From positions 29,293,087-29,357,086 of the forward strand of contig OZ029916.1 in assembly GCA_964023275.1 (NCBI GenBank): DNA of 64,000 nucleotides, in the 5' to 3' direction. Below, piece after piece: positions 15,000-64,000 of this stretch (positions are counted from its first letter, which is position 1; each line of letters starts with the position of its first letter). Under the pieces are notes generated by a model. It was given only the letters and a program-made list of their open reading frames with translations, ran no database searches and had not been told where the DNA came from. The DNA is from Norana najaformis (Eukaryota > Annelida > Clitellata > Crassiclitellata > Hormogastridae). Made by a program: the position numbers and the translations under genes.

Positions 15000-15100
15000 G
15001 ATGATTATATCTGCTCTGTTATTTTTCTTTCTAATTCTATTCAATTTGATTCAACTGTCTTCTAATATATGTCTTCTATTATGTGTTATTCTGGTCTCAG

Positions 15101-27257: not shown

Positions 27258-27271
27258 CAGTGACGTCACTG
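27258..27271. promoter_or_regulatory. CRE-type palindrome just upstream of the GT31 start codon
   Basis: CAGTGACGTCACTG is a perfect 14-bp palindrome containing the consensus cAMP-response element TGACGTCA. It ends 18 bp before the ATG, so it would lie in the 5' UTR or at the core promoter. Function is not tested. Confidence 0.5.
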
Positions 27272-27289
27272 CATTCGCGTCAGATCAAA

Positions 27290-41880: not shown

Positions 41881-42080
41881 CAAAATGTAATTTAGGCATA
41901 CAGAAAGGTGGGTTAAGGTAAAAATAACTCTAATAGGCCTCATATTTGGCAATGATTTTTCGGAGTAGAGTCAGAGGAATTCTTCTAAATCCATTCGTGT
42001 GTCATTCAATCGTGGCAGAATCCTGTCTATCGGTGAGTCCCTCATCATAACTCGGTTCTTCTTTGGCTTCTTCTTCCGCC

Positions 42081-42136
42081 CAATTAACTAAGTAATAAAT
42101 TAACTAACTAATAAATTAACTAACTAATAAATTAAC
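42081..42136. repeat. 16-bp tandem repeat, about 3 copies
   Basis: The unit is AACTAATAAATTAACT. Confidence 0.9.
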
Positions 42137-42263
42137 TGGCACCGATTTGCGACGGTTTCCGCGGTCGAACCACCTCACCTGCAGGGGCCGCTTGCAACGA
42201 CTCAATCGCTGAAGACAATCTCATAAATCACAAGGATCGGCGAGCGGGCCGAGATCAAAGGCA

Positions 42264-42290
42264 CACCTGTGCACCGTTGATGCACAGGTG
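42264..42290. repeat. hairpin with perfect 10-bp arms, 7-nt loop
   Basis: CACCTGTGCA and TGCACAGGTG flank CCGTTGA. An E-box sits in each arm. Confidence 0.85.
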
Positions 42291-42409
42291 AGTCGCATCA
42301 AGTACCTAGGAGAGCATTGTTTTTGTACCCGCTGCATTGTAGAACTGCCCTCCTCGACTATTCCACCCAACCGCTGACCGGACACCGAACCTCCTGTGGG
42401 CTGGTCAGA

Positions 42410-42910
42410 GAGAGAAAGAGTGACAGAGACAGAGATAGAGGCAGAGACAGAGATATATGAGAAGAGAGAGACTGAGAGATATAAATGAAGAGAAACAGAC
42501 ATATAGACACAGACAGTGAGAGAAAGAGAGACAGAGGTCATGAATCCAAAAGTTTGTTTAGGAGTTTGTTTACGATTTGAAGGGACGCCAAAGTGCATCG
42601 CTCCGCTGCGACATCTGCCGTTATAGACAGATACAATGTCAGACAGACGGAGAGAGAGAGAGAGATACGGAGACAGAGACAGAGGCAGAAGGAGACAGAG
42701 AGCCAGTGAGATAGGGTGAGACAAAGAAATGACAAGATATAAATAGAGAGAGAGAGAGTGTGTGTGTGCATATGTGTGCACGGGAGAGATAAAATAACAA
42801 ACCAGAAGGAGACAGAGGTAGAAACAGAGGGACACAAATACAGAGCAAGACAGACATAGGATGAGACAAAGAAATAAGGACAAAGCAAGGCACACAGAGA
42901 TCGGGATGCA
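42410..42910. repeat. (GA)n/(AGAGAC)n purine-rich region
   Basis: Low-complexity AGAGACAGAG blocks are split by a unique 80-bp piece at 42540-42630. The long minus-strand open frame across it is a composition artefact. Confidence 0.9.
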
Positions 42911-43330
42911 GAGGGGAGGGGCGGTGGCCTGGATGACTGTATTTTGAAGACTCCCAAAGGGACTAATTGCCGGGTTGGGTCTCTGGTCAATCCCCCCTAC
43001 AATGCGACCATTTAACGCCCATCCTCGAGACTGACAGGTCATGACGGGCCTCTCTTCAGACAGAAAACTGTCAATAAATCATCGTATCAAATATACATAT
43101 GTACATCTCTTATATACATCTTTTATATACATATATGCATATTTTATATAAATACATATATAAACATCACTATTATGCATAAATAACTTGGGTTGTTTTG
43201 AGTGTGGAGCCAAACAGTGGAGTGTGATTGCGTCCAGTGGCTAATCAACGTCTGAAGCCAGCTTTCGCATTTTACGTTGGCGTAGCCAGACTGCATGTAC
43301 GATTAATCGGTCGACGGCTTAAATAACAAG

Positions 43331-43360
43331 CAGTGGCGTAGCCAGGAGTCGGAGAAGAGT
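43331..43360 (+). mobile_element. DNA-transposon terminus-like sequence
   Basis: CAGTGGCGTAGCCAGGAGTC is a widespread transposon-end motif. The second end was not found. Confidence 0.4.
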
Positions 43361-43396
43361 GTATCAATGATAATGACGATGACCTTCATAAAAAGG

Positions 43397-43475
43397 TAAT
43401 GGTGGTGGTGGTGGTTGTGTTGTTGTTGGCGGCGGTGTTTTGGTAGTGGTGGTGGTGGTGATGATGATGATGCTG
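43397..43475. repeat. (GGT)n/(GAT)n microsatellite
   Basis: GGTGGTGGTGG and GATGATGATGATGC. Confidence 0.9.
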
Positions 43476-43739
43476 ACTACTATCATGATGATACCGTATG
43501 GCCATTTGAACATTCTTCTTGGATCCTCTCGCAGCAACTCAGCTGCTTCTTCATCCATCACTGCTCAACATGGTTTCGTATTATCCGCAAACGTAGAAAT
43601 TTTAGATAAGATTCCATTACCTATGTCGTTAATAAAAATTATGAACAGCAGTGGCCCAAACACTGATTCTTTTTGGCACTTCGGAATGGGCGCTACACCA
43701 TTTGAGGTCCCTGTGTACGGACCGTGTTAACCCGAGATT

Positions 43740-44690
43740 TAAATCTCTTAAACATGGGCACGATCTGCAGTGTATGCGAACCGGCATCTTCATGCACAGC
43801 ACAGAGACGTCTTAATTAACCTACGCTTTAGCCAATGTAGCTAACCAGGACAGTATATGTTTTTCTAAAAGTGCGTAACCGCTTTTGATAGTCTAACGAA
43901 ATGCCAATCACTACTTTGGAGAGTCAGTATATAAACCTGTAAACTACAGGTAACCGCAAGATCATAAACACCATACGGCGACATACGCCGATGTGTATCA
44001 TCAAAGCACTTTTTGCATCGTATTCAGGCCGTTCATCCTCCCATGCGAAATAAGGCCTAATGTGGGTTATAGGCAAATTATATTTAGAAACATTTATAGA
44101 GATTTATGTGATTTCTTAAATTATCAGAATCACATGTCATATGCATAACACCTGAATAACTATATAAGACAGAAGAACTAGTGCCTCGAGCAGAAAGGGA
44201 GCTCTGCTAGAAATCGCAGTTTCCCTGGCATTGCCTTCATCAGCTCCTGCCATCTCTTCGTAAAGGACAAGTAAGAAAGAAAGGACACAAGAATTTCGCA
44301 AGAAAGGACACCCCTTCTCGTTAACTGTTTAAAAGTAGTTTTTTGATGCATCTCCAGTTATATTTAGTCGTACATTTCTGTGAGTTGTATTTGCTTGTGT
44401 TATAATCTTGTTTAAACATGTGTGTATTTGTTCTATACAGTGTAATGCATGTGCGCATGTCAGATGCTAGTAAAGGCTACTTACTTACTTATTTACTTAC
44501 CATACACTTCACAGATTGTTACGCCGCCATCACGGTGCATTGCTACACATGTGTACATTATACTATCACATACATAAAACAAAATATATACACAGTAATT
44601 TCGGGGAGGGGTATATTTAGAGAGCCTCACTCAGGAACAGTAACATTCCACGTCCCTGTCAGCCACTCACAGTCATTATCCACAATACTA
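43740..44690. other. intergenic DNA, nothing recognised
   Basis: No coding or repeat similarity seen. Confidence 0.5.
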
Positions 44691-44704
44691 TTATATAATA
44701 CTGG

Positions 44705-44765
44705 GGGGGGGGTGACACTGTGGCCGAGCGGTGATCAGGGTTCGAAGTCAGGGTCTTTCATGTGA
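44705..44765 (+). mobile_element. shortened tRNA-like SINE head
   Basis: GACACTGTGGCCGAGCGGTG (box-A-like) lies directly next to GGGTTCGAAGTC (box-B-like), so the anticodon region has been deleted. Confidence 0.5.
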
Positions 44766-45303
44766 AATCGACAGAGGTCGCATTGTTACCTGTGCGTAAC
44801 TTCAGAGGCCAATATCTTCGATATGAGGACATCTTTCTTTAAGTTCAATACATCACGTGGTGATGTGTGTAAACGGTAGAATTTGGTACCAGCGCAACCT
44901 GTGAAGTAAACTGCACGTCTTACGATGCGATGGCCCCGAGTCGAAGACCTTGACATTTGTTCATTACCGGCTCAATGGTCAAGGGTCGGAGAGCAGCAAG
45001 AAATAATTCCCTCCCCTACTTCCACGAGGGACATAAGAGCTTTACAGTGATTCACCTGCATACGCGGACTATATATATATGATTATATATATATAATATA
45101 TGATAATATATATATATACTGCCTGGACTAAGTTGCCGCCGTTTTCTGCTTCAGTTGAGACGTAGTTATGCGGCCGATCGCTAGATGGCACCAAGAGATA
45201 CGGTCTGCCGCAAAATGGCGTCCTTGCCCCACCCGTCCACCTTAACCCCGTGACCATTTCTACGGTTGCCTGCCTAACCCACCGGCCGCCCCTCCCCCCA
45301 CAG

Positions 45304-46394
45304 GTCTATCTCTATGCTTTGAATGGACATACAATGCATGGTGCCGGGCGACCCAATATCTTCAGCTGCAAGGGAGGGATCATTAATTTATGGATTAGAC
45401 CATTGTACTCCACTCCAGCCGAACTATTCAACGATGACAAGAACATGTGAGGGCAATTTCACTTAGAACCTATTCATATATATCTAATATATATTTAAAT
45501 ATAGGCCTATATATAGCAGTCATAATAATATAGAATGTCAATATAAAGGCCATATTATTCTTAATGTTAACAAGTAGATTATATGTATATGTATGTATTT
45601 CACATATACACGACGTCTGTGTACAATTGCTGTCAGAATAATTTGCAATTTCTTTATCTTCATTTGCATGCAAATGCCAATGTAAATCTCGGAAATTTCT
45701 CTCAGCGTCACATAAGAGCCGAATCGAGGAGACCATGCAGCATAGATTTCACCGGCGCTACATCAAATCAAGTCCACAAAAGCCAGACTGTTTGGTTAAT
45801 TTTATTGTCGGATCAGAATCCGGGAAGGGGGGTCAAGTCAGAGAGGTAATATGATTCTAAGGTGGTGATGGAGGTTATGAATAGTGCAAAAGCGGAAACA
45901 GGATAGGATAGCTTGGAGACTCAGTTTTCCGTCTTGAGTGGAAACATTAAACGAGAGAGCTAGGGCAAGCGGAGGAGTATTTGTATGGACAGGCTGGAAG
46001 GGAGGATGAGCGAACTGGATGAGGTTTTACAGGATTTTGTACCTCATATATAATATAATTATGTGTATACATATTATTATACAGTTTTCAAATGGACATT
46101 CACATGTATAAGATTTCCATTCTAATTCTATAATTATAATATAGAGGCATACAATAACTATATAGGACTCTCGTATATTTTCTTTTATATATATACACCA
46201 CTGATGACAAGTGATTTATACAGTTCCATTTACTGGTGACCTGTAAATGTATAAATTATATATTGTGAATATATAGCCTACTGAAGATTATTATTTACCT
46301 ATTATACATGGATTCAGAATTTTTAAATATTAATATTTGATTTGTTTATATTCCATTTTCAGGTAGATTCGACTTATACAGGGTATATCTATAG
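45304..46394 (+). CDS. possible 3' end of an unrecognised gene (three exons)
   Basis: Exons 45304-45446, 45717-45845 and 46367-46394 join in phase (0-2, 2-2, 2-stop) and would encode about 99 residues. These include GRPNIFSCKGGIINLWIRPL, then CSIDFTG, SQTVWLILLSDQNPGRG and a short end FDLYRVYL. Splice sites are CCCCACAG/GTGAGG, ATAAG/GTAATA and CAGGTAG. The second exon could instead start at 45706 after a better acceptor, but that breaks the phase. The VWLILLSD...GRG stretch is faintly CUB-like; I do not recognise the family. Upstream exons were not identified. The weak intron ends make this a low-confidence model. Confidence 0.35.
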
Positions 46395-46399
46395 GCTGC

Positions 46400-47600
46400 A
46401 CTATGCAGTGAAAAAGAAAGTGATGGACGGTATTTCAAGCCTATTTACCCCTCCTGCTGAAAGGGCATAAGTGACTGAGTTATGCTTTTGTTGAACGAAG
46501 GCTATTTCCAGCCACCAGAGGGCGATGGCTATGCCAATTAGTCAATTATAATCGTCTTAAAACGAAGTTAATTCCTTGCGACAACTCTCTAAACCATGCC
46601 TATATGTATTATATGCTAGATAAATACATCAGCCATGAATTATAGGTATGCACAGCTTATGTACACTTCATGATTTGATATAAAGTATATATCTATGTAT
46701 ATATATATATATATACGTATATATGTACCACTATGTGTGTATGTATATTTGATGCATGTAAATATTGTGATCTCCTGCGTCTGCATATATATGAATTATT
46801 TATGACGTATATATATGTGTGTTACTGTATATGTATGTATAATATATATTATTGCACCATGGAGCAAAATGTAGCATCGGCATGACTTTGAATAGAGCTT
46901 GATGGGTAAGGTGCCAGAGTGGTCGTGCTCGTCGTAGCAAGTGGCACTTATAACAGACGCCGAGTGCAGTCGGCCCAGCAGTAATTAGTCGTGTGAACTC
47001 TCGGATTGGAGGAGTGAACGAGCGGACGAATGAGCTGTAGATGGCGCCACTGTATACACATGCAAATGGCTGCCAGTTAAGGGTTTATAGCTCGCAGTCG
47101 CCAACATTGTTTGGCATTAAGACGTCGCGAGACGATAGTTGTATATATACTGAACGAATTGTGGAACTATGGCTGAGTTACTGGCTAAATGAAGATCTGT
47201 TCGATATGGCCAAATACGAGTATATAAATATCGAATAAAGATGGACAATTTCTCATAATCTGTCACGTTTATTATTAAATTCCGTTTTGTGTTTTGCTTG
47301 CGAAATATGCAAAACAATTGAAACATACTTTAAACGAATGACATTTCATATACATTTATATTGTTTTCTCATGTCAGAGATGCGCCTTACGCTTATGTAG
47401 GCCCTATGAATGCATACATACATGTATGTAGGTATGAGTGTATGAATGTATGTAGGTATGAGTGTATGAATGTATGTATAGGTATGCATGCATGCATTCA
47501 TGCGTGAACAAGACACATAGCATATCACCTTACAGTACCTATCAAAAGCGCCGAGTATAAGCTTGTATAAGTGGTGTTAAATTTAATTGATAGGTTCGTC
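46400..47600. other. intergenic DNA, TA-rich microsatellites
   Basis: TATATATACGTATATATG blocks near 46690 and (TATG)n near 47420. No gene was recognised. Confidence 0.5.
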
Positions 47601-47639
47601 TATGAGCAACTAATGCTCATGTTACGGGATAAGTTAGAG

Positions 47640-47970
47640 TGGCCGACTTTCGCACACACGCACAGCCCATTTAACCAAGTCCCATCCAGAACTGAAAGTT
47701 GACACAAAGTGTAGAGTTCTGTTACCATGTTGCGTTCAGGAAGCGGAATGACGACAATCGAATGAAGACCGCAGCCCACAACTACGCTCACCATCTGGCA
47801 TTCCCTCGCAGATGCATGGTAGAAAACGCAGCCTCTAGGTGTCCCTCAGGTCATCAGGCCTGCGCAGAACGTGTATTGTCAGTAACAGGCCACCGTGGTC
47901 GTATAGAGCCTCTCTGTTATGGACTCTCAATGCCACTCCAAAGTCTGGCCGAATGCGAGATATCCCGATA
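47640..47970 (+). mobile_element. unnamed repeat family X, copy 2
   Basis: CCATCCAGAACTGAAAGTTG, GTAGAAAACGCAGCCTCTAG, CTGCGCAGAACGTGTATTGT and CCACTCCAAAGTCTGGCC match in order the reverse complement of 48180-48565. Confidence 0.7.
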
Positions 47971-48179
47971 ACAGACGACAAAATAATATAAGTTTATTCG
48001 ACACAGTCGAAGTGGACCAAATACCGTCCAAACACGCACAAAATTCTTCATAAGAACTGTCGAGGAATCATAGCGTATGACGCACCAATCTATCAAAAGT
48101 AACAACACGCATGAACAACGGCTATCTTGACCTCTGGTCATCTAGCAGACATCTGTCACCGAACAGTCACCGCATCATG

Positions 48180-48565
48180 GTTCCCGTTTGAACAGTGCGA
48201 AGCAGCAGACTAGCATATGCCTTCCTCGACAGGGAAACCTAGGACTCGATGACGCGACAGCAGGGCAGATTTTGGAGTGGATCGACCGTCCACCACGGTG
48301 AGGTTTTGTGGCCCTCCCCCAGCGGCTACTGACGAATGCCTGTTCTGCACAGATCTCGCGAAGTGAGAGTGATATCTGGATGCAGCGTCTTCTAACATCT
48401 GCCGCGCAAGGAGGGCCCGTCGGTGAACGTAACCGTGTGCTGCGGACGTAGTTCCTCATTCGCAGTGCAACTCAGATCAGGAACTCTGAACTTTGTGTCA
48501 AATGTCAATTCTGGATGGAATTCCGCTGGGTGCCACGAGGTTCCACGTGTGCGCGAACGCCAACA
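48180..48565 (-). mobile_element. unnamed repeat family X, copy 3
   Basis: It is the inverted partner of 47640-47970 about 210 bp away. On the minus strand it has CCATCCAGAATTGACATTTG, TTAGAAGACGCTGCATCCAG, CTGTGCAGAACAGGCATTCG and CCACTCCAAAATCTGCC. It carries no coding capacity I recognise. Confidence 0.7.
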
Positions 48566-48764
48566 GTGACTTTTTCAGTTATTTGAGCATTGTTTACTTT
48601 ACAGACGCACTTTTTCTTTACGCTATAGTTAGAATCGCCTTCAAAAGATACTTAGAGGGCGCTAGGAAATGTTGAGCAACATGACATTGCATCACATTCG
48701 TTCGTCCGTCCGTCCGTTCGTTAATTCATACATATGAGCTTTTCCTGGCGATTGTAGGTACCGC

Positions 48765-48903
48765 ATGATGATGTTCATGATGAAGTCGTTATCGAAGATG
48801 ATTATGATGACTAAGACACTACTACAGTTCGTCATCATTATGATGTCATTTGACGCGCGATGTGTTCTAAGTGTCTCTCCTTCGTACATCGATCAGCTGC
48901 AGG
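48765..48903 (+). CDS. exon 1: signal peptide
   Basis: Several ATGs precede the hydrophobic core; 48765 is the most 5' in frame and the ATG of MTKTLLQF (48810) is an alternative start. The donor CTGCAGG|GTAAGA leaves phase 1, which matches exon 2. It overlaps an ATGATG-rich stretch, so the start is the least certain part of the gene. Confidence 0.6.
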
Positions 48904-51900
48904 GTAAGAAATCCCACTCTCGTCATTATGGAACTATACACTCTCAGTTTCAAAGAAGTACAAGCAATTACCGGAAGGTTAATGGAACATCACAGCCACT
49001 CAGTCGGACGGGTCGGGTCGGGTCGGACGGTCGGTTCAGGTTATTCGTTCGTAGAATCTATCATCCAGTATTAGGAATAATGGGACGATGAATGGTTTTA
49101 CAATGTTTCATTTTGTCACATCATTTGCGATTATTAAACTATTGTATTCAACGACCAGCGTCTTCACTCCGTCTCTTGATCAGTTGGGTCCTATTTGTCT
49201 AAATCTCTTAAACATATCTTTGACCGAATCTATTTAATTCTGCTTGATCGAGATTTTTGCTTGTCCTGCAGTCGCCCTTATTAATTGGTAATAGACCAGT
49301 TCAGCTGAGTTAAGTCCACTCAAGTATGGAGATCGACGAGTATTCAGGTCTCCATGCATGAAGCAGACATCGCGGTACCCTAGTGTGCGGTGCGGTGGTC
49401 TATTCGGTAGCGCACCGTAGGGTCTGCAATCAGATGATTGCAGGTTCGAGTCTGGTCCGTGTACCGCCCCTGGGCAAGGTGTTAGCTCATATTTGTCTCT
49501 CAGATTCACTGACCTTAGGCGCATATTAACTGCAATAAATAAATAAGTAGGGCTAAGTTTGCTTTTCTCTTCCTACATTAAGGTGCACCTTAGAGAGCCT
49601 TATCTACGTGGTTTTTGAGAGGTTCTTATGAGGCCTTATACAAATGTTCACATACGCGCATACGTCCTTACATAAATTCTAAGAGCGCTATAAGAAGTTT
49701 CTTTCTTGAAGTGACAATGCTTAAATTCCAGCCTGCGAAAATAACGGCCCGTTGGGTATGATAACTGGCCATATCCAGGACTGGCAGATAACGGCCTCTT
49801 CGACCTATCCACGTGACTGGGACAAGGAGTGTCATGAGCGATTCGCTCGCGTCTACCAGCCGAACGGAGTGGCCTGGTGTGCCAAGCATAAGTCGGCCTC
49901 AGAGTGGCTTCAGGTCGATCTCGGAATCCCTGGCAAGGTAGGTGATGATAGATGAACAGATCCTCTGATGCACTCATCGCCTTTCGCCGTTCTTTCAAGA
50001 CAGCCATTGTGATCGGTCTATGTCATGACGATTAGCAGATATAGTGTTAAAAGACATCTTTCGGCTGCCATCGCCGTTGACGTCGACCTTTCCTAACCTT
50101 GGCAGCTTATTATTACAAAACTTTTCGATATGAATCTCACGACTGAACGCGGTTGATGAATAGGCCAATATAGCGGCGTTTGACTGCTTTATAAAGATGT
50201 CAAATATCCATATGGCAAGCACGAGGATAGGAGATAGGAAATAGGAGATCGAAGATACAAGCAAGAAAAAAGAATGAGGAAAAAGTTGGCGTCGGTTGAA
50301 AGCTCTAAAGTTTTCCTTGGTATAGCATGAAGGAACAGGAGACAGGAAACAGGAGGAGGAGGAGGAGGAGGAGGAGGAGGAGGAGGAGGAGGAGGAGGAG
50401 GAGGAGGAGGAGGAGGAGGAGGAGGAGGAGGAGGAGGAGGGTTAGAAGGCGAGGAAGCTGGAGGAGGAAGAATAGAGGAGCAGGAGGCGGCGGATGAATA
50501 GAACGACGAAAAGGAAGAGGATTGCGATGAGGAGATAGATAAAAAGTGGATAGATAATTCAGCATACTGTAGCTCTGATGCATGCACTCATCTAAGTTCA
50601 TATAGGCGTTCAAGGCGGAGATTGCATGACTATAGACGCATGTTCTACTGCAGTCTTTCTAAGGTAGGCCAATCCTGGCAATAATCGGTGTAATGCTATC
50701 TTATGTAATGTTACATTATGCTATCTTGTCCATTTTTATCCATGCAAGTAATGTGATGTGATTACATGGGCCTCTGAAGTCTTTCTCGAAGAGGCGTTGC
50801 ACAGATTTGTATTAAATTAAATGTGATGTAATGTTATTTTCTTTAATTTATTTGATTTGTTTTGGCTAATCTATGGTTAGTCGTTTATAAACGATTCCTC
50901 ATATTACTGCAAGTAATGCGATGTGATGTCATGGGATGTACATTTATTTCATGTTGTCTTGTTCTTGCCGTGTCCTCTTCGGTACTATCTGGACCAGAAT
51001 TACGATATTATCTGATCCATCATACAAACTCACCATCACTTCCCCCTTGCAATCTCTGCGCAGGTCTTCCATTAAAAACTGAAAACACTCCTCTTCTGCA
51101 GATCCTATCCTGATTCCTCTTCTTCCTCTTATCTATCCTGCAGATCCAATTTCAAACACCACCCACCGTAGCCGTCTGACTGTCTGCCTGCCTGCAATCT
51201 TTTATTTTGAGCTGGAACCGAACCCTTCTTGCCTATTTATTTTGTTTTTCTGACAGCCTGTGAATAGCTGGTTCCCGCGACTTAGCTTTCGTTGGGCGCT
51301 GCAGAAATCTCGAGTTCGCGATTAATTATGTCATCTTATATTACTATATCCCATCCTACTGCGTTTACTCTATGATCTCATTTCATCTCATCCAGTCTCA
51401 TCATAGGTACATGAATATTATTGTGTATAGTCCAATATTTAGGTCCTTGAAAACGCATCAAGCGTGGATGTTTGTTCCAGGTGACCGGTTTAATGACCCA
51501 AGGAAGAGGAGATGGAACGGAATGGGTCGTTGCTTACCAAATCTCCTACAGTCTCGATGCATTTCACTGGCAATATATCTACGACCAATACGGTAACCAA
51601 AGGGTTAGTGGAGTAAACAGTTATGGTAACCGAAGGGTTATTGGATGCAGTAATTTTATTTATATAACGCCTTTGAAGAACCTCACAAAGACGCTACAAT
51701 ACAGTGGAAAACAAATCTAATAACGTGCGATTAACGTGAGGTTGAAAATGCTTCTTGACCTGTCCCTATCAAAATGTACGCAGTTTTAGTGGAAGATTCT
51801 CCCAGAAGATCAAAATGTACGCAGTTTTAGTGGAAGATTCTCCCAGAAGATCAAAATGTACGCAGTTTTAGTGGAAGATTCTCCCAGAAGACGGTCCAAA

Positions 51901-54900
51901 AAGCACGACTGTGCAGGTCCCATGGACTGCCGAAAGATCTCTCTGATCTGTTCTGCATGGGGCTGCAGCATATATGGCGAGGCTCGTACCATAAGAATTT
52001 TGAATGCAATGATGTCCTCGATCGACAGCCAGCTCAGCTAGCGTCGTAAATATCCATCGCTCAAACTATGTTACACTCTTATAGTAACGGTAAACCATAC
52101 AGCCAGTGCAGTAAATAGTTATGGAGATCAAAGGATTAGTCCATGAAGTAACTACAGTAGGCCCAATCGAATTCTTTCCATACAGTGGTTACAGTAGCAC
52201 TGACAAGAATTAGTGCAGTCATTTACAGTACTGTCATGCCTTGATTTTCAGAACTTATCGAAAGTTAACTTACCTTTATGACACGTGTACAGGTGTTTGA
52301 TGGAAACACCGATTCGTATCACGTGAAGCATGTCTACCTGGACCAACCGATTATAGCCAGGTACATCAAGTTCCACACGACACGCTGGAATCGACATCCA
52401 AGCATGCGAGTGGAAATCATTGGTTGCCAAGGTATACCGGCTTAATCTGCAAACCATAATACACGACTTACAAAATAATGATATCTTAAAATTATTTCCA
52501 TTTAGCAGCATGTGCTTCAAGAACTTACCAAACTCATTCTAAGAATGTTTCATTATTGTAATAAGGTTAAAGTTTACACAAATCCTTCCGCGAATTCTGA
52601 GTTCGAGTTACTGTTTGTAAATCGTAGATATCGGTAAACATACGTGTAGGTAATTACATTACGCTTCATCAGCGTTACACTGATTGCATTGCATTATATC
52701 ACAATACATTGAGTTGATTTACACTACTTTACATTTCATCTGATTACATTGCATTGCATTGCATTATATCACAATACATTGAGTTGATTTACACTACTTT
52801 ACATTTCATCTGATTACATTGTATTGCAATGCATTACACTTTATTACATTGCATGTTGATGACCAGTGTGCAACAGTTACGTGGCTCTGCCTCCATATGG
52901 CAAACTGACGGCGTCGAGTGAAAGAAACCAGCACACCGGAAGTTCCTGTCAAGCGGAGGACGGACATCTACTGACGCAGAAGGGATGGTGCGCCAAGGAA
53001 AACAACAGTCAGTCTCAGCATAACGGCTTCTCGCCTACACCTACACTACGATTCTTCCGTCCTTCCTTCCTTTGTCTCCACTATTCCAGCTATCCTTCCG
53101 TCTTTTCTTCCGTTCATTCATCCTTGCACTGCCTCCTTCCATCCTTCGCCTCTATCCTTCCATCCTTCCTTTGCCTTCTTCCATGCACCCAAGCATCCAT
53201 CCATCCATCCATTTATCCATCCATCCATCCATCCATCCGTCCAACCAATCTCACTCGCCCACAATACAGCTGATCGAACACTCATACAACTAACACCATG
53301 CAGCCACACGAACGCCCAGAGCAACCAACCATTATTGCTACCACTCACAAAAACATGGATGCCCACGTCACAAACATCTGTCTAATTTATTTATAATTAT
53401 ATTTATTATATTTAATTAAGCCTATTTATTTTGTTTATCTAACCCTATTTATTTATCTAGGCCTAACTATTTCTTTTGCCCTATTTAATTATCTAATATT
53501 TATTTATTAGTTTATTCGCATGGCTTGTATACTGTAGACAACCAGTGGCTTCAGTTCGACGTGGGGCCTCCAACCCTGATAACTGGTTTTGTGACGAAGG
53601 GTCGAGGAGAGCCAGGGCGGCAGCACTGGGTCACCCGCTACCGTCTGTCCTACAGCAACGACACTTCGCTCTGGTTCTTCTACAAGGACGCCTCCCACCT
53701 CGACATCAAGGTATACACTAAGGAATCAATACCTGTTCTCAAAACCAGATCGATACACAAGTAGGAGAGTATGCAGGCGATGCAGAATTGATTTTACTCC
53801 TGTTCTGTTAATTTGTCAAGATATTATTGCGTGCCTTTTCGAAGTAGCCTGCTCTTTACCTCACCTAACTATGTTAAGTTTATATCATTGTCAATTTTTC
53901 TATCGACACACGAAGACGAGTGACAAACGAATGAATGCAAATGAAGTTGGGGAATGCCGCCTTAATGGCTTTGTTTTAACTATGACGCAAGTCAAATGTC
54001 ATCAAGTCATATTCAGTTAATAAGTTAGTCGTCTTTCATACGATGGCACTTCAATTATCCTTCCAAAGGAAGCAGTTGTCACTAATCGTCCAAGAGAATT
54101 GCACAACAAGGATGAGCAACATTTAGAAGAAAAATTTAACTTAAAAGTTAATTTAAAAGTTAATTAAAAGTTAATTTGGCTAAACATATGTGATTAGACT
54201 TGGAAAAGACTTAGAGTTCTTTCGACATGTGTTGCATGAGTTTCATAAATACTCTAAGATGACCCTGCAATGCCTAAAAGAGCAAAGAAGACAACCGACT
54301 AAAACTCTGGATTTTCTTGCACTATAATAAAATTTTCTGATACTACAATTTGTTGTCAGAAGGAGGTTTGGAAACAGAGGTTCATAGCACGTGTTCTTTT
54401 AACTCGACTTGTCACTGACAACGAAGTATTTACTTGTACTTGCTACTTAAGTACTTGTAATGTAATACAGACTGGGTCTTGTAGCACAAGTACTTCTACT
54501 CGTTTTAGACCGCGAATATAGTTCATCAGTCGACAAAATTATAATGTATTCTATAAACTCTTGGCTCGTGTGTCACGTAGTGGGCGTGACTTGGTAATAA
54601 ACGACAAAGTTGAAAACTCCGCCCATGCGTCTATCTCCATTGTGATTGGTGTGCTTTTGAAGCGCCCTCTTTTGTCTTGGAATAAGGAGTCGTTCACAAA
54701 CGCCACCGTCACCTCCATCATCCCTGACCGCCAAAGCCTGGAGGGTTTGGTAAGAAGCATGAATGGTTACATGTGCGCATGCGTGCATGGCAGTCAGACA
54801 CCAAAAAATTAAGTGGCTAACACTTCATACCCATGGATGCCTTAGAGCTAACTTAAAAGTGACTGCTCTTCTAATGCATGATGTATATTCTAACGCGAGT

Positions 54901-57900
54901 CTTGTATATAAACGAGTCACTTTCTCACTAAAAGATGACCAATTATATTGGCCATGATCATCAGGGTTTCGCATATTTCGCCTACAGTGCATTTTCAAGA
55001 TATCTATTTTAGTAGGACACATAAATTATTACCACTGTAAGTCACAACTTTCGGGAGCTGTCAGACAGTCACTTTTCAGAGCCTTCGAGAGGCCTTTTGA
55101 AATGCGCTGTATAAATGATCACGTTACTGTAACGAGATCACATACGACGTGTGCAGCGCTTTTTAGACGTGTTAATTAAGTGTCTTGATACGTATATAAA
55201 TACGAGATGCATGTATTTTATTTACATATAGTTGTTTGACCTAAACATTTCTTTATATACCTAAGATAATCAGTTGCTGCGCTATATAAATGTTCGTTTG
55301 CTTGTTAACCGTGCGATGACGGGGGGATGAATGCGATGGTTATCCATGTTTTCATTTTCATCATGAGATGCACAGTAAGTTAACAAACCAACCGTCGTCC
55401 ACTGGTCGATCCATGGATCATCAATCAAGAAATCAATCAACCAAGCCAAACATCTAACAATCCAGCCAACTAACCAACCAACCAATCGTCAATCAATAAA
55501 TCAATTGTCCATCAATCCCCAATCAATAACAATCAGCAAATAATTAATTCATTTATCCTCTATCAATAAATCAATCAACCAATTAACTAATCAGTCAATC
55601 AACCAAGTATTCCAACAATCAAGCATATCATTTTATTAACATTCATGATACTAAATCCTGGGAAATAAATAACAAATGCTATGTCAGGAACTCTAAAAAT
55701 TATTAGAACTTGCAAAGATTTTTATAAATCTATCTATAAAAGTCAAATGTCTCAGTTTTCATATTGGCTTTTGGCTGGCAAAGTTTTTGTTCCCATGGGA
55801 AGCATAATAAACTGACTATACTACTGAGAAAATCATAATGAATTCTTGAAAAGATGATTTATTAAACCCTCTAAACAGTACTGACACGGCTATTTTGGAC
55901 GTTTATTTGAATGACTACATCGCTGGCTACGTCATCATTGCAGGAATTTGGCGGCAATCTGGACAAAGACACGGCCAGATACCACTACCTCACTTCACCG
56001 TTTGTGTCTCGCTATGTGCGCTTCCATCCCATCGAATGGAACACCCACATTGGATTGAGAGCAGGGTTGATTGGATGCCCCCATAAAGGTAGGCTAAAAC
56101 ATCAGTCTCTCAAACCTTATATGATACTAAAAGATACTTGTCATTTTTGGGATCACCGGCCAAAATCTATAAGACTCGCTAAGGAAACAGATATCACGTT
56201 AACATGTGTTATGTTAGAATATTCAATCACTGAGTCTCTCCTCTCAAGCGCTCTCATACTATCAATCACTGTCATTATGCCTGTCTGTCAGTCTGTCTCT
56301 CTGTCTCTTTGTCTACCCATCCTTTCCTGCCTTCGTTCCTTCTTTCCTTCCTTTCTTTCTTCCTTCTTTCTTTCCTTCCTTCCTTTCTTCCTTCCTTCCT
56401 TCCTTTCTTCCTTCTGTCCTTCCTTCCTTCCTTCCTTCTTTCCTTCCTTACTTCTTTTTCGTCCTTCCTTTCTTCCTTCCTTCCTTCCTTCTATGCGTCC
56501 ATTCTTCCATACTGTCTTACTTACCTACTCCCTTTCTTCCTTCCTTCCTTCATCTCTTTTTTGTCTTTTACTCTCTTCCCAGATATCTTTTTCTCCTTCT
56601 CATTCTCCCTTTCTATCTCTCTCACCGAGATTTCTGATTCGCGCGTCAATCATCGTGCTTTGCTTGGGCTTTTGTAGGTAACTGTGGACCAGGGTTTCTT
56701 CGGGTGGTCGTCAATACACCGTGTGGTCAGTAACCGTTTGTGCATTTATCTTCGTACATGTATGTGCATCTGTCTGCGTATTCATCCGCTTGTCTGCTAG
56801 TACGTATATATGTCTGCATACATCTGGCTTTATGTCTATCTATGATTTTTTTGCCTCAAACCATATTATGCACGTAGGCTCTAGTCCCTGTCGTCTATCG
56901 ATCTGTCCTTCTATCAGTCAGTGAAAAGCTGCATGCATCACCCTCTCCGACAATGATTTCATCGATGTTCATTACTCACCCATCGACTCATCCACGTCAA
57001 TCACTCCAATCAACGAATCAATTAACCAAATAGCCAATAATTTAGTAAGTCAATAATGAGTGGAAATACGATAGATAGGCCAAATCTCGGGTAATAACTT
57101 TCGTATATCACTATTATAATAATGCGCTGTTCAATCGATGGTTGGTGCTAAGTGCAACCGACAGGCAAATTGAGGTTCAAATATTATACGCCTACGTTAG
57201 GAGGAATTTGTGGATTTCAGTGGAGAACTTGGCTTATAAGAAGGAATCGTGGATCAACAACAAGCGGCAATTTAAACGTCACGTGCGCAATCAGTGGACA
57301 CGCGGTCAAGCGGGACGAGCAGTGGACGGTGACGTCAATTCGCCCACCTGTACGGTGCTGGACAATTACTATGTGGACAAGCCGACACTGATGGTTGACC
57401 TCGGAAAAAGGACGAAGATATCCGGCGTTCAGATAATCACAAGTCAAGGAAAAGACCCAGGTCTCTATTTCAGATCATAATTGATAGTAGATAAGATCAG
57501 ATTCAATGCAACTGTTCATTTCATTGCTATTGTGAATAAAAATATTTCTTATTTTTCTCTCATGTGCAACACAATATTGTATGTTCAGCAATTTGTGGAG
57601 GGCGTGCAGCATCAATTTATTCATTCGCCTTTTCATCCGTTCACGATATTTAGTCTTCCATGTAGCTACCACTACCACCGCCGTCACCACCACCACTACC
57701 ACCACCACCAGAGTTCAAGGTATCAGCATCAGAGGACTAAAGGAACAATAGTTTTCAAAGACCGATTGTGGTATCCAGCTGAATTTCAGTACTGCAGATC
57801 AATCGTCCTATGCACTGTTCATAATTCCTGGGCGATGGCCAAGCGCCGCTCGACCTAAAGCCATCGCCCTCAGCATGAGACCCGAATCAAGTGAACCGTA

Positions 57901-59165
57901 AAACTAGCTTTATCTGCTTTCCCAAAAGCGTTGGTTTGATTTCGGCGACCTTTGTCTTGATTTTGCTGTTTCTGTCAAGTAGATTTCCAGTGCAAATTAG
58001 TGCGCTTTGCCGTCGAGTATCTTTACAGCCCAATCTTTACCTCTAATTCGTTTACGATAAACCATGGAGGTTAGTATATATCATTGCGATAAACCTGCTC
58101 ATCCAGCTCCTGCATTAACTGAAAGTCTGAAACCATATATTAATCCACTGGCGGATCTAGAAGATTACAACGGGGGCATGTAGCAGCAAGGACTATGAAA
58201 ACGGTTTTTACAGAACTATGAAAGTTACTAGCCGTGTTGGACTTCGCAAAAACATTTTGGTCATCAGGACCTTTGAGGACCGTTTTGTGTAATCAAATTT
58301 TGCTATGAAGTTTTCATCAAAATATCGCTGAACAACAGAGGATTGTCAAGAGTTGCTGATGGCTTAGACATGTTATCAGAAATTTTGACGACGCAAACTA
58401 GTACTCAGAAGTCTTGATCGATGACTGAAATGGTTCCCACGACTCAAAAGATTTCAGTGACTTTTCCAGGAACTTTTAATTAGTTTTTCTCTTAGTTTCC
58501 CCAGATTTTCGATGACCTTTTCGGTAGGTAACATTCGCCTAAACCAGTTTTGAGGCAACGCAATGGTGTGAACCAAATCAAGTAGAGGCCATGTTTGGAT
58601 TGCTCACTGGATCGGCCCTTGTATTCATCCAATACATCTCTCATGTATACCCAAAGGTTTAACCATTAGGTGTTTAAGATTAATCCTATTTGTAACCCTT
58701 TGTAATTCAGTGTAATAATTTATTCATCTTCGGATCTAATAATGTACTCACTCACTATTTCTTCGATAGGCTTTGTCCATATTTCAACTACGCCAGTTCA
58801 TCAAAAGGAACCCAGACATACACAGTTGACGGAAACCTGTTTACCCTTAAGATTGGTTTAAGTTAACCTTTATCTGAATTTAACTTTCTGACATCACAGA
58901 CCAGCAGAACTCGGACCACATCTACAACCTCGACAAACTGACGATCTACGTGGACAACAAGGGTGGAAGGGAAAACGTCGAGCAACTTGAAAACATATGT
59001 GGGTTCATTTCGAGAGTAAATGACGCCATTTTTCAGGCGCATCTCCACGTCCAGTGCAGCGGACCAATGAGAGGCCGATACTTGTATGTCGAAGCGACAG
59101 GTGTCGCCACGCGATGGACGAGATTGTTTAGCGCTGTTATCTGCGAGGTTCTGATCTACGAATAG
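48765..59165 (+). CDS. secreted three-lectin-domain protein: discoidin - discoidin - fucolectin-like (ten exons)
   Basis: Ten exons join in phase with GT-AG introns: 48765-48903, 49732-49937, 51481-51603, 52293-52431, 52867-53007, 53538-53710, 55944-56088, 56678-56725, 57221-57460 and 58900-59165. The total is 1620 nt, 539 residues. Residues 1 to about 33 look like a signal peptide ([14 protein letters not shown] core). Residues 48-201 and 204-352 are two F5/8 type C (discoidin) domains. Each has the WLQ-D, TQGRG/TKGRG and RYI/RYVRFH motifs and bracketing Cys. Residues 372-539 are a fucolectin-like beta-sandwich ([43 protein letters not shown], stop). Such domains bind glycans or phospholipids. 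No transmembrane segment follows, so a secreted recognition or adhesion protein is inferred. I see no R-x-D sugar-binding motif in domain 3. Module-bordering introns are all phase 1. Confidence 0.85.
49385..49650 (+). mobile_element. tRNA-derived SINE with L2-type tail, intron 1 of the discoidin gene
   Basis: GCGGTGGTCTATTCGGTAGC (box A), GCAGGTTCGAGTCTGG (box B) and CCCCTGGGCAAGGTGTTAGC (body) are followed by GAGGCCTTATACAAATG, a variant of the GGCGCTATATAAATG tail. It is the most complete SINE of its type here. Confidence 0.8.
49732..49937 (+). CDS. exon 2: first half of discoidin domain 1
   Basis: The acceptor is AAATTCCAG and the donor GGCAAG|GTAGGT. It encodes [20 protein letters not shown], then [20 protein letters not shown], the typical opening of an F5/8C domain. 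Confidence 0.93.
50352..50440. repeat. (GGA)n run of about 90 bp
   Basis: Pure (GGA)n, giving Pro- or Leu-only frames on the minus strand. Confidence 0.97.
51240..51330 (+). repeat. element 3' end shared with 62705
   Basis: GGTTCCCGCGACTTAGCTTT and CGTTGGGCGCTGCAGAAATC match GGTCCCGCGACTTAGCTTTC at 62740 almost exactly. Both follow pyrimidine-rich sequence. Confidence 0.75.
51481..51603 (+). CDS. exon 3: middle of discoidin domain 1
   Basis: A 41-codon phase-0 exon. It encodes [20 protein letters not shown] and ends YGNQR, which joins to VFDGNTD of the next exon exactly as in the F5/8C consensus. The donor AGG|GTTAGT is acceptable; an earlier GTAACC would break the domain. Confidence 0.88.
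51648..51705 (-). repeat. L2-type 3' tail, reverse orientation
   Basis: TTATTTATATAACGCCTTTG on the + strand is the reverse complement of a GGCGTTATATAAATAA tail. Confidence 0.6.
51768..51890 (+). repeat. 41-bp tandem repeat, three identical copies
   Basis: Units start at 51768, 51809 and 51850 (ATCAAAATGTACGCAGTTTT...). They are identical by eye, so the duplication is recent or homogenised. It lies in an intron of the discoidin gene. Confidence 0.97.
52293..52431 (+). CDS. exon 4: end of discoidin domain 1
   Basis: It starts [20 protein letters not shown] and ends RVEIIGCQ, with the closing Cys. The donor CCAAG|GTATAC leaves phase 1. Confidence 0.93.
52679..52860 (+). repeat. 70-bp tandem duplication in ATTAC-rich DNA
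   Basis: GCATTATATCACAATACATT recurs at 52691 and 52761. Confidence 0.9.
52867..53007 (+). CDS. exon 5: first part of discoidin domain 2
   Basis: It encodes [20 protein letters not shown], then KGWCAKENN. The donor AACAACA|GTCAGT leaves phase 1 and matches the next exon. Confidence 0.88.
53040..53245. repeat. (CCTT)n and (CATC)n microsatellites
   Basis: Simple repeats directly after exon 5. Confidence 0.9.
53538..53710 (+). CDS. exon 6: middle of discoidin domain 2
   Basis: It encodes [40 protein letters not shown] and [13 protein letters not shown]. The acceptor is TACTGTAG and the donor AAG|GTATAC. It includes one N-glycosylation sequon (NDT). Confidence 0.93.
53711..55943. other. intron 6 of the discoidin gene
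   Basis: It contains TTAAAAGTTAAT triplication near 54140, L2-type tails near 55100 and 55272, and degenerate (AATCAATC)n near 55440-55600. No extra exon is needed because exons 6 and 7 join cleanly. Confidence 0.6.
55944..56088 (+). CDS. exon 7: end of discoidin domain 2
   Basis: It encodes [20 protein letters not shown], then [20 protein letters not shown] and LIGC. The acceptor is CATTGCAG and the donor AAAG|GTAGGC, phase 1. Confidence 0.93.
56290..56590. repeat. (TTCC)n polypyrimidine tract
   Basis: CTTCCTTCCTTTC-type repeats just before exon 8. Confidence 0.95.
56678..56725 (+). CDS. exon 8: short linker with Cys pair (48 nt)
   Basis: [16 protein letters not shown] lies between TTTTGTAG and TGTG|GTCAGT, phase 1 on both sides. 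It could be skipped without losing the frame. It is supported by phase and by its natural joining to VENLAYKK. Confidence 0.6.
57221..57460 (+). CDS. exon 9: first half of fucolectin-like domain
   Basis: The acceptor is GTGGATTTCAG. It encodes [30 protein letters not shown] and [20 protein letters not shown]. The donor CCCAG|GTCTCT is phase 1 but not strong. Confidence 0.88.
57665..57712. repeat. (ACC)n microsatellite
   Basis: CCACCACTACCACCACCACC. Confidence 0.9.
58146..58185 (+). mobile_element. DNA-transposon terminus-like sequence
   Basis: CACTGGCGGATCTAGAAGAT with GGGGGCATG nearby resembles the CAGTGGCGGAT ends at 13353. Confidence 0.3.
58900..59165 (+). CDS. exon 10: second half of fucolectin-like domain and stop
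   Basis: The acceptor is GACATCACAG. It encodes [20 protein letters not shown], then [20 protein letters not shown] and [13 protein letters not shown] before TAG. The protein ends on the last beta-strand of the domain, as in many fucolectins. Confidence 0.93.
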
Positions 59166-60290
59166 TTGTAATAACTGTCATTAACTGGATCAAACTATGC
59201 AGGCAGTGTATAAATGACCGGATTTGAGAATGTCTGCTCTATATTAATGCAATAATGGATTTTTCAAATTGTCTGCCGCTTTTGGAAGCTCTTTTTCAGA
59301 GCCGACGCGCTTTTAGTTTAGCATTTAAGGAGCTTCTGGTGGCACTAGACCTAACCATAGCTTTCATGTTAACTACGGGAATGCAGTGAAAGCTTCTATT
59401 AATGCCTGTTCTTATTAACATCGGCATTCAGCGACAGTTTCAGACAAACAAGTCTGTGGTAGGTGATGAACTAACGATTTTCGAAAAATTGTAGACTAGC
59501 TTGAGGCCCTAAAGCTATAAAATCACAACCTGAAGCCCCAAAACCCCCGTAGAATAATGACACCATGTTAGAGAAATGTTCCCGTAAGCAAAATAATTTA
59601 ATTGACAATACAGCTGTCCAGCCTTAATGGAAATTTTGGAACCTATGTAACCTTTACCTGCATTAATGGAATGTTCTAACCCCCTCCCCATTGAACTGCA
59701 AGACCAAATTCGGTTTCCATGATTTGGGTGCCAGTTTTATAAATATAAAAGCATGCTGTTCTGTTGTGCCCGGAACACGTCAAATGCTTAAATATGTTTC
59801 AGTTGCAAAATGTTTTATTCTGACATTTTGTGCGAATTATTGTATCAGCTGAAACTTTAAGCTGTGCTATTAGGCCTACTTCAATTTGACCTTAGAATAA
59901 GTAAATGAATTAGGCCTAAGCGGTTCTAGACATGCAGATCCTTTGCAGCTAACGTTTGGTCCCATATTTGTTAATCTTTTGATCTTATTCGCTTTTGCGT
60001 TGTGTGCATTTTCAAGTTGTACTCAGTCACGTGTAATTTAGTTGTTGCAACCAGCAAGCAGCCATGCAAACGTTTTTGAGATACGTATTTTTCTGACTGA
60101 TCACCAGTGAAACACTTAACTTTCTCGACTTAGCTTTTGGTTGTTCAATAAAAGCTGCATTGGCGAATTGGGCTACTAACAGCAGAGTCTTCTAACGTTT
60201 CGATGAATGAGCCTACGTAGCACTCAATGGAAGGCGAAAAGGTCTGAGGTTGGTCAAACAGTGTCGAATAATTTTTAGACGTTGCAGAAA
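59166..60290. other. 3' flank of the discoidin gene
   Basis: The first AATAAA found by eye is at 60147-60152, about 980 nt after the stop, and could end a long 3' UTR. No other feature seen. Confidence 0.4.
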
Positions 60291-60296
60291 CAAAGA

Positions 60297-60369
60297 CATA
60301 GATTTGAACCCATGCAGTCAAGCCTCTTCACCTTGAGTCTGGCGCCTTAGACCACTCGGCCATCCTGAC
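60297..60369 (-). pseudogene. tRNA-Leu-like pseudogene or SINE head
   Basis: Minus strand: GTCAGGATGGCCGAGTGGTC then TAAGGCGCCAGACTCAAG is close to metazoan tRNA-Leu(CAA) up to the anticodon loop. After it the 3' anticodon stem is absent, and the T stem (ATGGG...CTATG) and acceptor stem do not pair. Box B survives as GGTTCAAATC. It is therefore not a working tRNA. Confidence 0.7.
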
Positions 60370-60625
60370 AAACACGATTAGACCTAGCCCAAGTTCAGGG
60401 CTTTGAATGTTGTCTCAAGTCAGTTTATTTGCACCAAATGATGGCGAGTACACATTTCCGACTAATACTATTTACTTCGTTTTGTGCAGAAGAGATAGCT
60501 AATGTCGCAACAATTGCTACAATGTCATAGACAAAGCACACAACATCAAGTGCATATAGCAGTAAATAATAAACCGTTCACTAGAATAAACTATGATAAG
60601 GCTCAAATAAGACATATGCAGCCGC

Positions 60626-60725
60626 GAACCTGGTTAGTTCAGTCAACAGACTATCTGACTTTTAAAGCCGGATTCCTCAGTACAGACATCGAGGGTCATC
60701 GGTTCGAGTCCCATATCGAGCGTGA
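60626..60725 (+). mobile_element. tRNA-like SINE head
   Basis: CCTGGTTAGTTCAGTCAACA and TCATCGGTTCGAGTCCCAT have box-A/box-B-like sequence but widened spacing. Confidence 0.45.
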
Positions 60726-61104
60726 AAGGTTTTGTACACTCCAAGACACAACATACAACGTATTCCTTCGACACAGTGAACTTGCAATACGTCTACCGAC
60801 TCGACGACTTTCGATGAATATTAATATCTATCAAAACATGTCCCCTACCACTAAGGCAGAGTGTTGCATCGTACTTTGGTCTCCCAGCCTTGTTTCATTA
60901 GGCCCATATTTGACTTTCTTCTGGAGTATTTGATTCCTTTTTCTTATTTTGGTTGCAAACGGCAAATGGTGTCTTTTAAGAAAATCTGGGAAGCAGGCGG
61001 TCACTATACGCTAGCCACGACGAGCATTGTCATCAGGCTCCTACGTATTGTTCAATTCGACCTGCTGAAATTTACTGCAGGGGCCTCGGGGTGAACTGGA
61101 AAAC

Positions 61105-61390
61105 AAAATCCAATCTAAGCTAATCTAATCTGAAAACTTGTCTAGTGGCGCTATAATATTGCTCAAGGCATCAGTCGGTTGTTGCTACTAAGCAAAATCG
61201 GCGTGCAAGCCAAATTCTGTGACGATAAGTTCCTCCCACCCTGAGATTCGTCATGCTGTCAGGAGGCCTTGGAGGCCGGAAGGACCCATTTCCCTTCCTC
61301 TGGTTGGGATTTGAATGCCGGTCGGCGGACCCCTCAATCCGACCCCGGAAACTTTCCTCACCATAACACACCGGAGCCCTCTTACTCAAC
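61105..61390 (-). mobile_element. full-length tRNA-derived SINE with TTAGA tail
   Basis: Minus strand: GGCATTCAAATCCCAACCAG is box B. The body then leads to CCGACTGATGCCTTGAGCAA, TATAGCGCCACTAGACAAG and a GATTAGATTAGCTTAGATTG tail. The tail matches the LINE at 30905, and the head matches 29111. Confidence 0.75.
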
Positions 61391-61399
61391 TTCAAGTTA

Positions 61400-62700
61400 C
61401 TCCGCAGAACGGGAAGCTCTTACGAAAGAGGAGACTCAATTATAGCCTTCCCAGGTGGCCAACAAGTTCCTATAGCGACTGTGGGGTTCGTGGCTCCCGA
61501 GCTGGGAGTTGCCGCCCCTATGAGCAGACTTGGATTCGTTTGTACCTTAACGACAGACTTTTCTTTTGCCTTCTCTGGTGTGCCTTTTCCCTTCGACTTC
61601 CCCGCCAGGGTAATTTCGGCTTGGGTCTCTTCCGTTTTGGTTAGGGTCTCCGTAAATTTCTCTTGCAAGAACGATTGTCGTGCCATTAGTTCTCTTAGGC
61701 ACTCTCCTCCTATATAAGACTAACATAGAATCCTAAGCGACAAAATCGACGGGACCACACCTTACCCAGTAAGCCTGTTATACTCCTATCTGGCTAACAA
61801 GAACAGAATTCCGCCATTTCGTTTCCATAGTCTCAAAATATGATAGGCTAATTAATCTTCTCAACGTAGTTAAAGCGCAATCAATAGACATCAGTTATGC
61901 ATAAGGTGGTTGCTAACTTAAGACGTTCTTTCTAGATTGTAGTTTAACATAAAAAATAAAAAGAAATCTTCATTACGCTCAACCAGTACCTTCAGAGGTA
62001 GAAAGAGCCTCAGGCCAATTAAAGAAACTGAGGTTCATATGTTCCAATTTCCAAGCCTCCAACGCGAGAAAACTGAAACGAAGCGCACGCGTTTTTGTAT
62101 TCGCTTAATCGCTATCATAAAATAAAATCTTTCGCTCGAATAAGAATATTTCTATCATATTTAAAGTAGACGAAAACAGTAGGCTGTGTGAAGACGAAGC
62201 CCCTTATCATTTGAGGCCTGGACCAAATGGCCCTACTGGACCCCCTCTAATAGGGCCTGCGCCCAACAACACCCATTTGGAGATTCTGTGCCACTCTTTC
62301 TCTACATATGTAACGTGACACTGAAGTATAGATCTAGATCGTGTAGAAAGTAACTCAACGCCTGATTTTCGGAGTGGAAATGGGAAACCAACATGTGATA
62401 CTGTGGTTGGTAGGCCTATAAGTTAAGACAGACAATTCTGGACTAATTTTTTCATCAAGACCGAGAATATTGACCTTTGATCTAGTTATTAAACACTCCT
62501 ATAGGCTAGCAAGTAAGCTTAAGCGCAGAGAAATTTTAAATTGGTGCGATTTACATTACATATTACTGCCTTCCCATTTCTCTCAGCTTAAACATAACCC
62601 ACTCTAACAGCTCCTCATTACCAAAATAGTTAACCTTTCCTTATCTACGGGTAATTTCCCCCTCCTTTTCGAACACCCTCTTGTTACCCCTCTTCCTGTC
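61400..62700. other. intergenic DNA, nothing recognised
   Basis: Includes open stretches without similarity. Confidence 0.45.
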
Positions 62701-62704
62701 TACC

Positions 62705-62810
62705 AATTTTGTCTTGACTGAGCGCCTGTGAATAAGCTGGGTCCCGCGACTTAGCTTTCGTTGGGAGCTCTAGAAATCTCGAGCTTACATTACGATACAC
62801 ATATCGTCTG
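62705..62810 (+). repeat. element 3' end shared with 51240
   Basis: GCGCCTGTGAATAAGCTGGG, GACTTAGCTTTCGTTGGGAG and GAAATCTCGAGCTTACATTA. Confidence 0.75.
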
Positions 62811-63553
62811 CTAGATGACGCCAAACGCTCATTTATAATAGACTGACGTCATAGCATGCCTATGTTTATGTATAGTCCGTAGAAGTAGATTTTAAAGTGC
62901 TTTCTTAAGCATTTTCTCCTTTTTTAAAATTTTACAAGTTAACAAAATGCATTAATTTATCAGTCGATAAGGCGATGCTAATAACTGAAACTCAAATAAG
63001 ACTATAAAAAGTTCGTATGCTGGCTCATGCTGCCACCGTTGCCTGTGAGTAAATGTATTATGACCGCCTTGCAATTTGAAGGTTCCAAATTTATTGATGT
63101 TAAATTGTTTCATAAAATTAGTACACATGCATAAATCTTTGGAGTAAAATGTGAGATTGTTAATGGTTAATAGCTGTGGTTCTCATAAAGGTTGCTGCAC
63201 AGGACCACGATTGGTTTTCGGAAGAGATTTCCATGTTTTGTTACTGTACGGTGCAGCTGTAATTTGATATTTGCCATTCTTGCAAAGTTCATAAGTGCAT
63301 GTTGAAGCCGGGCAACAGGGAAAATTAAGAACCATTAAACGGACTGGGCGAGGTAGGTTTTCAGTGTTGAGTGAACAATAGTCTCAGTAAGAGAGTTGCA
63401 AACATGATGAGGTAGAAAGTTCAGATGAAGGGGCAGCAACTGTAAATGAACAGACTTTTTGTTAAGTCTCTGTGCTGTTCCATTGCATATGAAGTCTGTA
63501 AAATTTGTCAGAAGTGTAAATTTGTTTTGTCCTGTTTACAGTAGCACTTAAAT

Positions 63554-64000
63554 ATGGCTGATGATGATCCACTGACTCCTGCACTGTCAAAAAGCTCAAG
63601 TAAGAAAAGTCACAAGGCCCGTAAGTCTGCTGTGTGTACCGAGTGTGGCAAGACGTTTGGATGTAAATCTGACCTTAAAGTTCACACTCGTGTTCATACT
63701 GGAGAACGGCCATTTGCTTGTAAAATATGTGGTAAATGTTTCAAGCAGTCACAGGCCTTGAAGCGTCATCAGAATACACACGCTGAAGTGAAGCATGTGC
63801 TTGCTCATCATAAGACCTTTAAATGTTTGGAATGTGGGAAGACATTCATGCAGAAGGCGCATCTACAGAGACATGCTGTCCTGCATACAGGTGCATTCCC
63901 GTATAAATGCGCAGTCTGTGGAAGGAAGTTCCGATTGAAACACCAACTGAAGAGACATAATATGCTACACACTGGCGAGAAACCACATTCCTGTGAGGAG
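63554..64000 (+). CDS. C2H2 zinc-finger protein, N terminus (runs off the window)
   Basis: 149 codons are open from ATG to the window edge. After a short basic lead ([19 protein letters not shown]) come four C2H2 fingers: [20 protein letters not shown](H), [20 protein letters not shown](H), [20 protein letters not shown](H) and [20 protein letters not shown](H). A fifth starts after [10 protein letters not shown]. Linkers are TGERPFA between fingers 1-2, a longer [14 protein letters not shown] between 2-3, and TGAFPYK between 3-4. This is a DNA-binding Kruppel-type protein; the target is unknown. No KRAB, BTB or SET domain is visible upstream in the exon. The acceptor-like CCTGTTTACAG ends 13 bp before the ATG, so a 5' UTR intron is likely. 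Confidence 0.93.

Follow-up and report, generated by a model that had tools for sequence, protein, structure and literature searches.

Secretory "triple-CRD" F-type lectins, with three consecutive domains, are described in a 2022 survey of rotifers (PMC8878817), in which PF00754 was used for the screen as the 'F-type lectin/discoidin' domain. As that account has it, the first two domains of these proteins are well recognisable and the third departs from the canonical signature, the type is common to six rotifers (one protein lacks a signal peptide, which its authors judged a misannotation), and the proteins share about 40% identity with several proteins from molluscs and annelids. Our literature search found no functional work on this triple-domain layout. 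Tandem F5/8C pairs also occur as C1-C2 of factors VIII and V and as b1-b2 of the neuropilins, and F-type lectins are represented among solved structures by eel agglutinin (1k12) and striped bass FBP32 (3cqo). According to the part of a report on F-type lectins that concerns it, the related F-type lectin and F5/8 discoidin folds are joined in one protein of the bacterium Microbulbifer (PMC5712786). The salivary proteins of leeches that carry a discoidin motif, or several of them, are mentioned in another report (PMC7191736) and are a loose parallel only.

The gene analysed here lies at 48765-59165 (+) of the window, by which we mean the whole 64,000-nucleotide stretch of Norana najaformis DNA. 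Its predicted product carries two F5/8C domains (D1 and D2) followed by a third, F-type-lectin-like domain (D3), and it is best filed, by architecture and through comparison with the published description only, among the lophotrochozoan triple-CRD F-type lectins. Like them, as far as that description goes, it is of secretory type and has three consecutive domains, of which two are recognisable and the third is off-signature; unlike them, D1 and D2 are F5/8C domains and only D3 is nearest to the F-type, whereas all CRDs are called F-type in the survey (PMC8878817). The protein is thus a new example of a known, little-studied kind, and the order itself is not new. The initial annotation knew of no described family with exactly this order; the layout is in print, but it receives one paragraph in the survey and is not well described (PMC8878817). 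What the locus adds is a clean gene structure for a kind of secreted protein already reported without functional work. As it stands, it represents ordinary domain shuffling among the galactose-binding-like folds of invertebrates; should the protein prove conserved, it would become a candidate for a humoral factor of recognition or adhesion.

Nine spliced exons give a predicted single frame of 523 amino acids plus stop (1572 bases). Exon 1 (48765-48903) holds the start codon, although the true start is uncertain, and a probable signal peptide with a hydrophobic core. The first, middle and last parts of D1 are encoded by exon 2 (49732-49937), exon 3 (51481-51603), where an RGD falls in the loop matching spike 2 of the factor VIII C domains, and exon 4 (52293-52431) with the closing Cys, and those of D2 by exon 5 (52867-53007), exon 6 (53538-53710) and exon 7 (55944-56088). 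The two halves of D3 lie in exon 8 (57221-57460) and exon 9 (58900-59165), the latter ending with the stop codon TAG at 59163-59165; all nine exons are on the + strand. The first AATAAA on this strand after the stop was found at 60147, and none lies near the stop. All eight introns, which are up to 2.2 kb long, are GT-AG with phases 1, 0, 0, 1, 1, 0, 1 and 1, and the donors are only fair, matching 5 to 7 of the 8 consensus positions. Each F5/8C module is flanked on both sides by phase-1 introns. Introns of phase 1 at both ends of a module are the pattern of shuffled modules.

The gene structure is open, phase-consistent and intact-looking. The agreement of phases that had been claimed holds over the eight introns in one frame, and the claimed order of signal peptide, F5/8C, F5/8C, fucolectin-like domain and stop is recovered, with the signal peptide recognised by hydropathy. 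Ten exons had been proposed; nine already give the whole open frame, no spot requires a tenth coding exon, and we rejected the ten-exon model. A tenth exon is not needed because D1 and D2 align across their exons with known C domains: D1 aligns with the factor VIII C domains through its exon junctions, and of the 153 residues of D2, those from 39 to 150 align with factor V/VIII C domains and those from 14 to 145 with PF00754.

For exon 1 there is no homology to rely on, and any of its eight in-frame ATGs could be the start; the choice of this exon was examined by a search of 42000-49700 (+) for exons of 60-300 bases that begin with ATG, end in phase 1 and carry a hydrophobic 11-mer scoring at least 2.2 near the start. 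When donors matching at least 4 of the 8 consensus positions were allowed, 7 donors were left in this region; at 5 or more positions there were 3, all of them donors of exon 1, and at 6 or more only the donor at 48903. The stricter GTRAG donor rule left exon 1 alone, but only one of the eight donors of the gene fits GTRAG. The six best 19-residue hydropathy windows all fall within the signal region. Among 11-mers, the one at residue 511 is the most hydrophobic of the protein; it lies where D3 ends and is read as the last beta strand of this domain, and alone it is too short for a membrane span. No membrane anchor was seen outside the signal region, in accordance with the lack of a membrane anchor noted in the initial annotation. 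With the signal peptide judged from hydropathy alone, the protein is probably secreted.

The identity of D1 and D2 is clear. Both exceed the cut-off of Pfam F5_F8_type_C (PF00754, 28.2 bits) more than 3-fold, with 99.9 bits for D1 and 90.2 bits for D2, and the HMM search thereby confirmed the two F5/8C domains proposed before. F5/8C domains typically have a Cys at both ends. These end cysteines are present in D1 (Cys 48 and 201) and in D2 (Cys 204 and 352), and each domain has an additional Cys pair (residues 80/96 and 230/244, respectively). Each of the two domains is matched by 67 distinct PDB sequences at E ≤ 0.001, and, among the 60 of the 67 matches listed, factor VIII, factor V and the neuropilins are at the top and lactadherin is lower for both domains. 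The protein resembles factor VIII/V C1-C2 and neuropilin b1-b2 in having a tandem F5/8C pair with a strong sequence match. Unlike those proteins, it gave no Pfam match to an A or a CUB domain when the spliced model was scanned, it carries the extra Cys pair in both D1 and D2, and the tandem is followed by the F-type-like third domain. The RGD of D1 (exon 3, 51481-51603 +) could have arisen by chance.

Assignment of D3 was less direct, as it falls just below the Pfam cut-offs for PF22633 (27.4 against 27.8) and PF00754 (24.6 against 28.2), and phmmer found no PDB sequence matching it at E up to 10. When a profile built from three domains of F-type lectins, namely eel agglutinin (1k12) and both domains of striped bass FBP32 (3cqo), was compared with D3 using hhalign, a match spanning most of the domain was obtained with a score of 31.9 and E of 1.5e-4, at a probability of only 51.7. 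None of 150 shuffled D3 sequences reached this score (mean 12.5, maximum 24.2). The scores of D1 (21.8) and D2 (21.2) with the same profile are within the range of the shuffles, and the best of the 70 window ORFs of at least 100 amino acids that were scored reached 18.2. The 133-amino-acid ORF that holds exon 8 alone, which is presumably within this set, is not among the six best ORF scores, so that half of D3 is not enough for a match to the profile. That D3 might be one more discoidin domain of the ordinary type was also considered and rejected, since D3 scores above D1 and D2 on the F-type profile and below the cut-off of PF00754.

The cysteines agree with this assignment. In eel agglutinin the fold is clamped by the disulfides Cys50-Cys146 and Cys108-Cys124, according to the structural passages of the F-type lectin report (PMC5712786), and Cys 399, 469, 488 and 517 of D3 align with the four cysteines of these two clamping pairs. 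Thus D3 is like 1k12 and 3cqo both in matching the profile and in having four clamping cysteines, although in the alignment the N domain of FBP32 itself is without the second pair; the disulfide pairing in D3 is predicted from the alignment of cysteines only. The contiguous Cys82-Cys83 of F-type lectins is absent from D3. When the alignment was read against the residues named in those passages, the clamping salt bridge Asp64-Arg131 was found to be conserved and Arg41-Glu149 not, and the calcium ligands Asp38 and Glu147 are likewise conserved, with Thr in place of the ligand Ser49, a change listed there as tolerated (PMC5712786). Judged by profile and cysteine pattern, D3 has an F-type-lectin-like fold, for which "fucolectin-like" is the correct term.

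The same term should not be taken to imply binding of fucose. The fucose motif is given in that report as HX24RXDX4[RK], with 26 spacers in the eel sequence (PMC5712786), and no HX24-26RXDX4[RK] motif is found in D3, in strict or in relaxed form. As controls, the strict form was found in 2 of 3 F-type domains and the relaxed form in all three; the relaxed form also matches D2 once, which we took as chance. Where the arginines are missing, D3 has insertions, so that the loop there could be placed in the alignment only with uncertainty. Unlike the F-type lectins 1k12 and 3cqo, D3 is thus without the fucose motif as well as the contiguous cysteines, and we rejected fucose binding by D3 on the absence of the motif; a fucose-lectin activity of this domain is not supported by its sequence. 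The fucolectin-like domain of the initial annotation therefore stands as to fold (31.9 against at most 24.2 in shuffles) and not as to fucose binding. Oyster F-type lectin isoforms without the basic triad are mentioned in the same source (PMC5712786).

Taken together, these features suggest a secreted, soluble protein in which two F5/8C domains and a C-terminal F-type-lectin-like domain, all of the jelly-roll type, probably serve multivalent recognition or adhesion. The protein would act in the body fluid or in the extracellular matrix, where D1 and D2 may bind glycans or proteins through their loops, and D3, with its disulfide scaffold apparently kept and its fucose-binding triad lost, may be an extra site for a non-fucose ligand or a structural module. 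The class of ligand and the immune or adhesive role are inferred. Of the "multivalent soluble recognition lectin" proposed at first, a soluble recognition protein is plausible, as no anchor was seen, and fucose-lectin activity of D3 did not hold. With the fucose motif missing from D3, the word lectin is not demonstrated for any of the three predicted domains. A more specific version, which we offer tentatively and think rather doubtful, is that D3 has kept the F-type scaffold, including the clamping disulfides and the main calcium ligands, and has rebuilt the sugar site for another ligand, in which case the protein could be a soluble receptor, conserved in lophotrochozoans, whose dissimilar jelly-roll domains link two different ligands.

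Other roles can be proposed from D1 and D2. In a single stretch (residues 53-353), the two domains together align as a tandem with neuropilin-1, and the single RGD (residue 124) lies in the D1 loop that corresponds to spike 2 of the factor VIII C domains, as might be expected if the protein was a matricellular adhesion or guidance protein similar to EDIL3/Del-1 or neuropilin b1-b2, binding cell-surface proteins, perhaps an integrin through the RGD, and not glycans. However, Pfam finds neither an EGF nor a CUB domain in the spliced model, one RGD in 523 amino acids is not rare, and the rotifer survey, where it deals with this layout, classes it with the lectins (PMC8878817), and we consider such a role unlikely. 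The solved relatives lead to another proposal: for D1 and D2 the C domains of factors VIII and V rank first and lactadherin appears in each list, in line with a phosphatidylserine-binding opsonin or bridging protein that would act in the manner of lactadherin or of these C domains. In the factor VIII C2 domain, the hydrophobic spike of the spike-2 loop acts in membrane binding. Unlike factor VIII/V, charged loops replace the hydrophobic spike here. In the comparison, which concerned spike 2, KSLLTS of factor VIII C2 is aligned to GRGDGTEW in D1, where the loop is two residues shorter, and to a 10-residue loop in D2. The charged loops of both domains speak against a lactadherin-like role at membranes, and on this ground we rejected it as improbable.

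The model itself might also be at fault, if its exons come from two genes or if a longer, membrane-anchored isoform skips the last exon. Long introns, donors that are only fair, an exon 1 that lacks its own homology and a model built from sequence alone leave some room for this. Nevertheless, the phases agree throughout, the three domains look complete, inspection by eye of the + strand ORFs of at least 24 amino acids in 42000-48764 and 59166-64000 revealed no further domain exon for a protein of this kind, and phmmer with D1-D3 gave no other related exon in the window, so that we regard an artefact of this kind as very improbable. The secreted three-domain protein remains the reading that we prefer.

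In the wider comparisons, the pattern search found no match among viral contigs or plasmids and 16 matches among bacterial and archaeal genome contigs, none of which was confirmed, and the single NCBIfam match reached 12.1 bits, where the cut-off is 585. The Microbulbifer protein, as it is described, differs from the present one in being bacterial and in having one domain adjoining the other (PMC5712786).

The DNA of the window is animal-like, with introns that are long, simple repeats and a fragment of a reverse transcriptase. When D1-D3 were compared by phmmer with the window ORFs of at least 20 amino acids, the exons of the gene and one chance match on the - strand (E of about 1) were obtained, and a cluster of paralogues in the window was rejected, as no other exon is related to D1-D3. 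Eight ORFs in the window were scanned with Pfam; these neighbours have no bearing on the three-domain gene. The reverse-transcriptase fragment, which is LINE-like, is at 391-1356 (+; RVT_1, 33.9 bits), and 6481-6867 (+), which has no Pfam match, resembles it by eye. A C2H2 zinc-finger ORF at 63545-64000 (+) runs off the end of the window and is the sole clear domain in the flanks (42000-48764 and 59166-64000). A single-exon ORF at 27245-28747 (+) is similar to beta-1,3-galactosyltransferases (Pfam Galactosyl_T, 148.1 bits; beta-1,3 by eye). An exon at 15001-15465 (+) ends within a homeodomain (56.8 bits over positions 1-46 of the 57 in the profile), which by eye we take to be SHOX-like.
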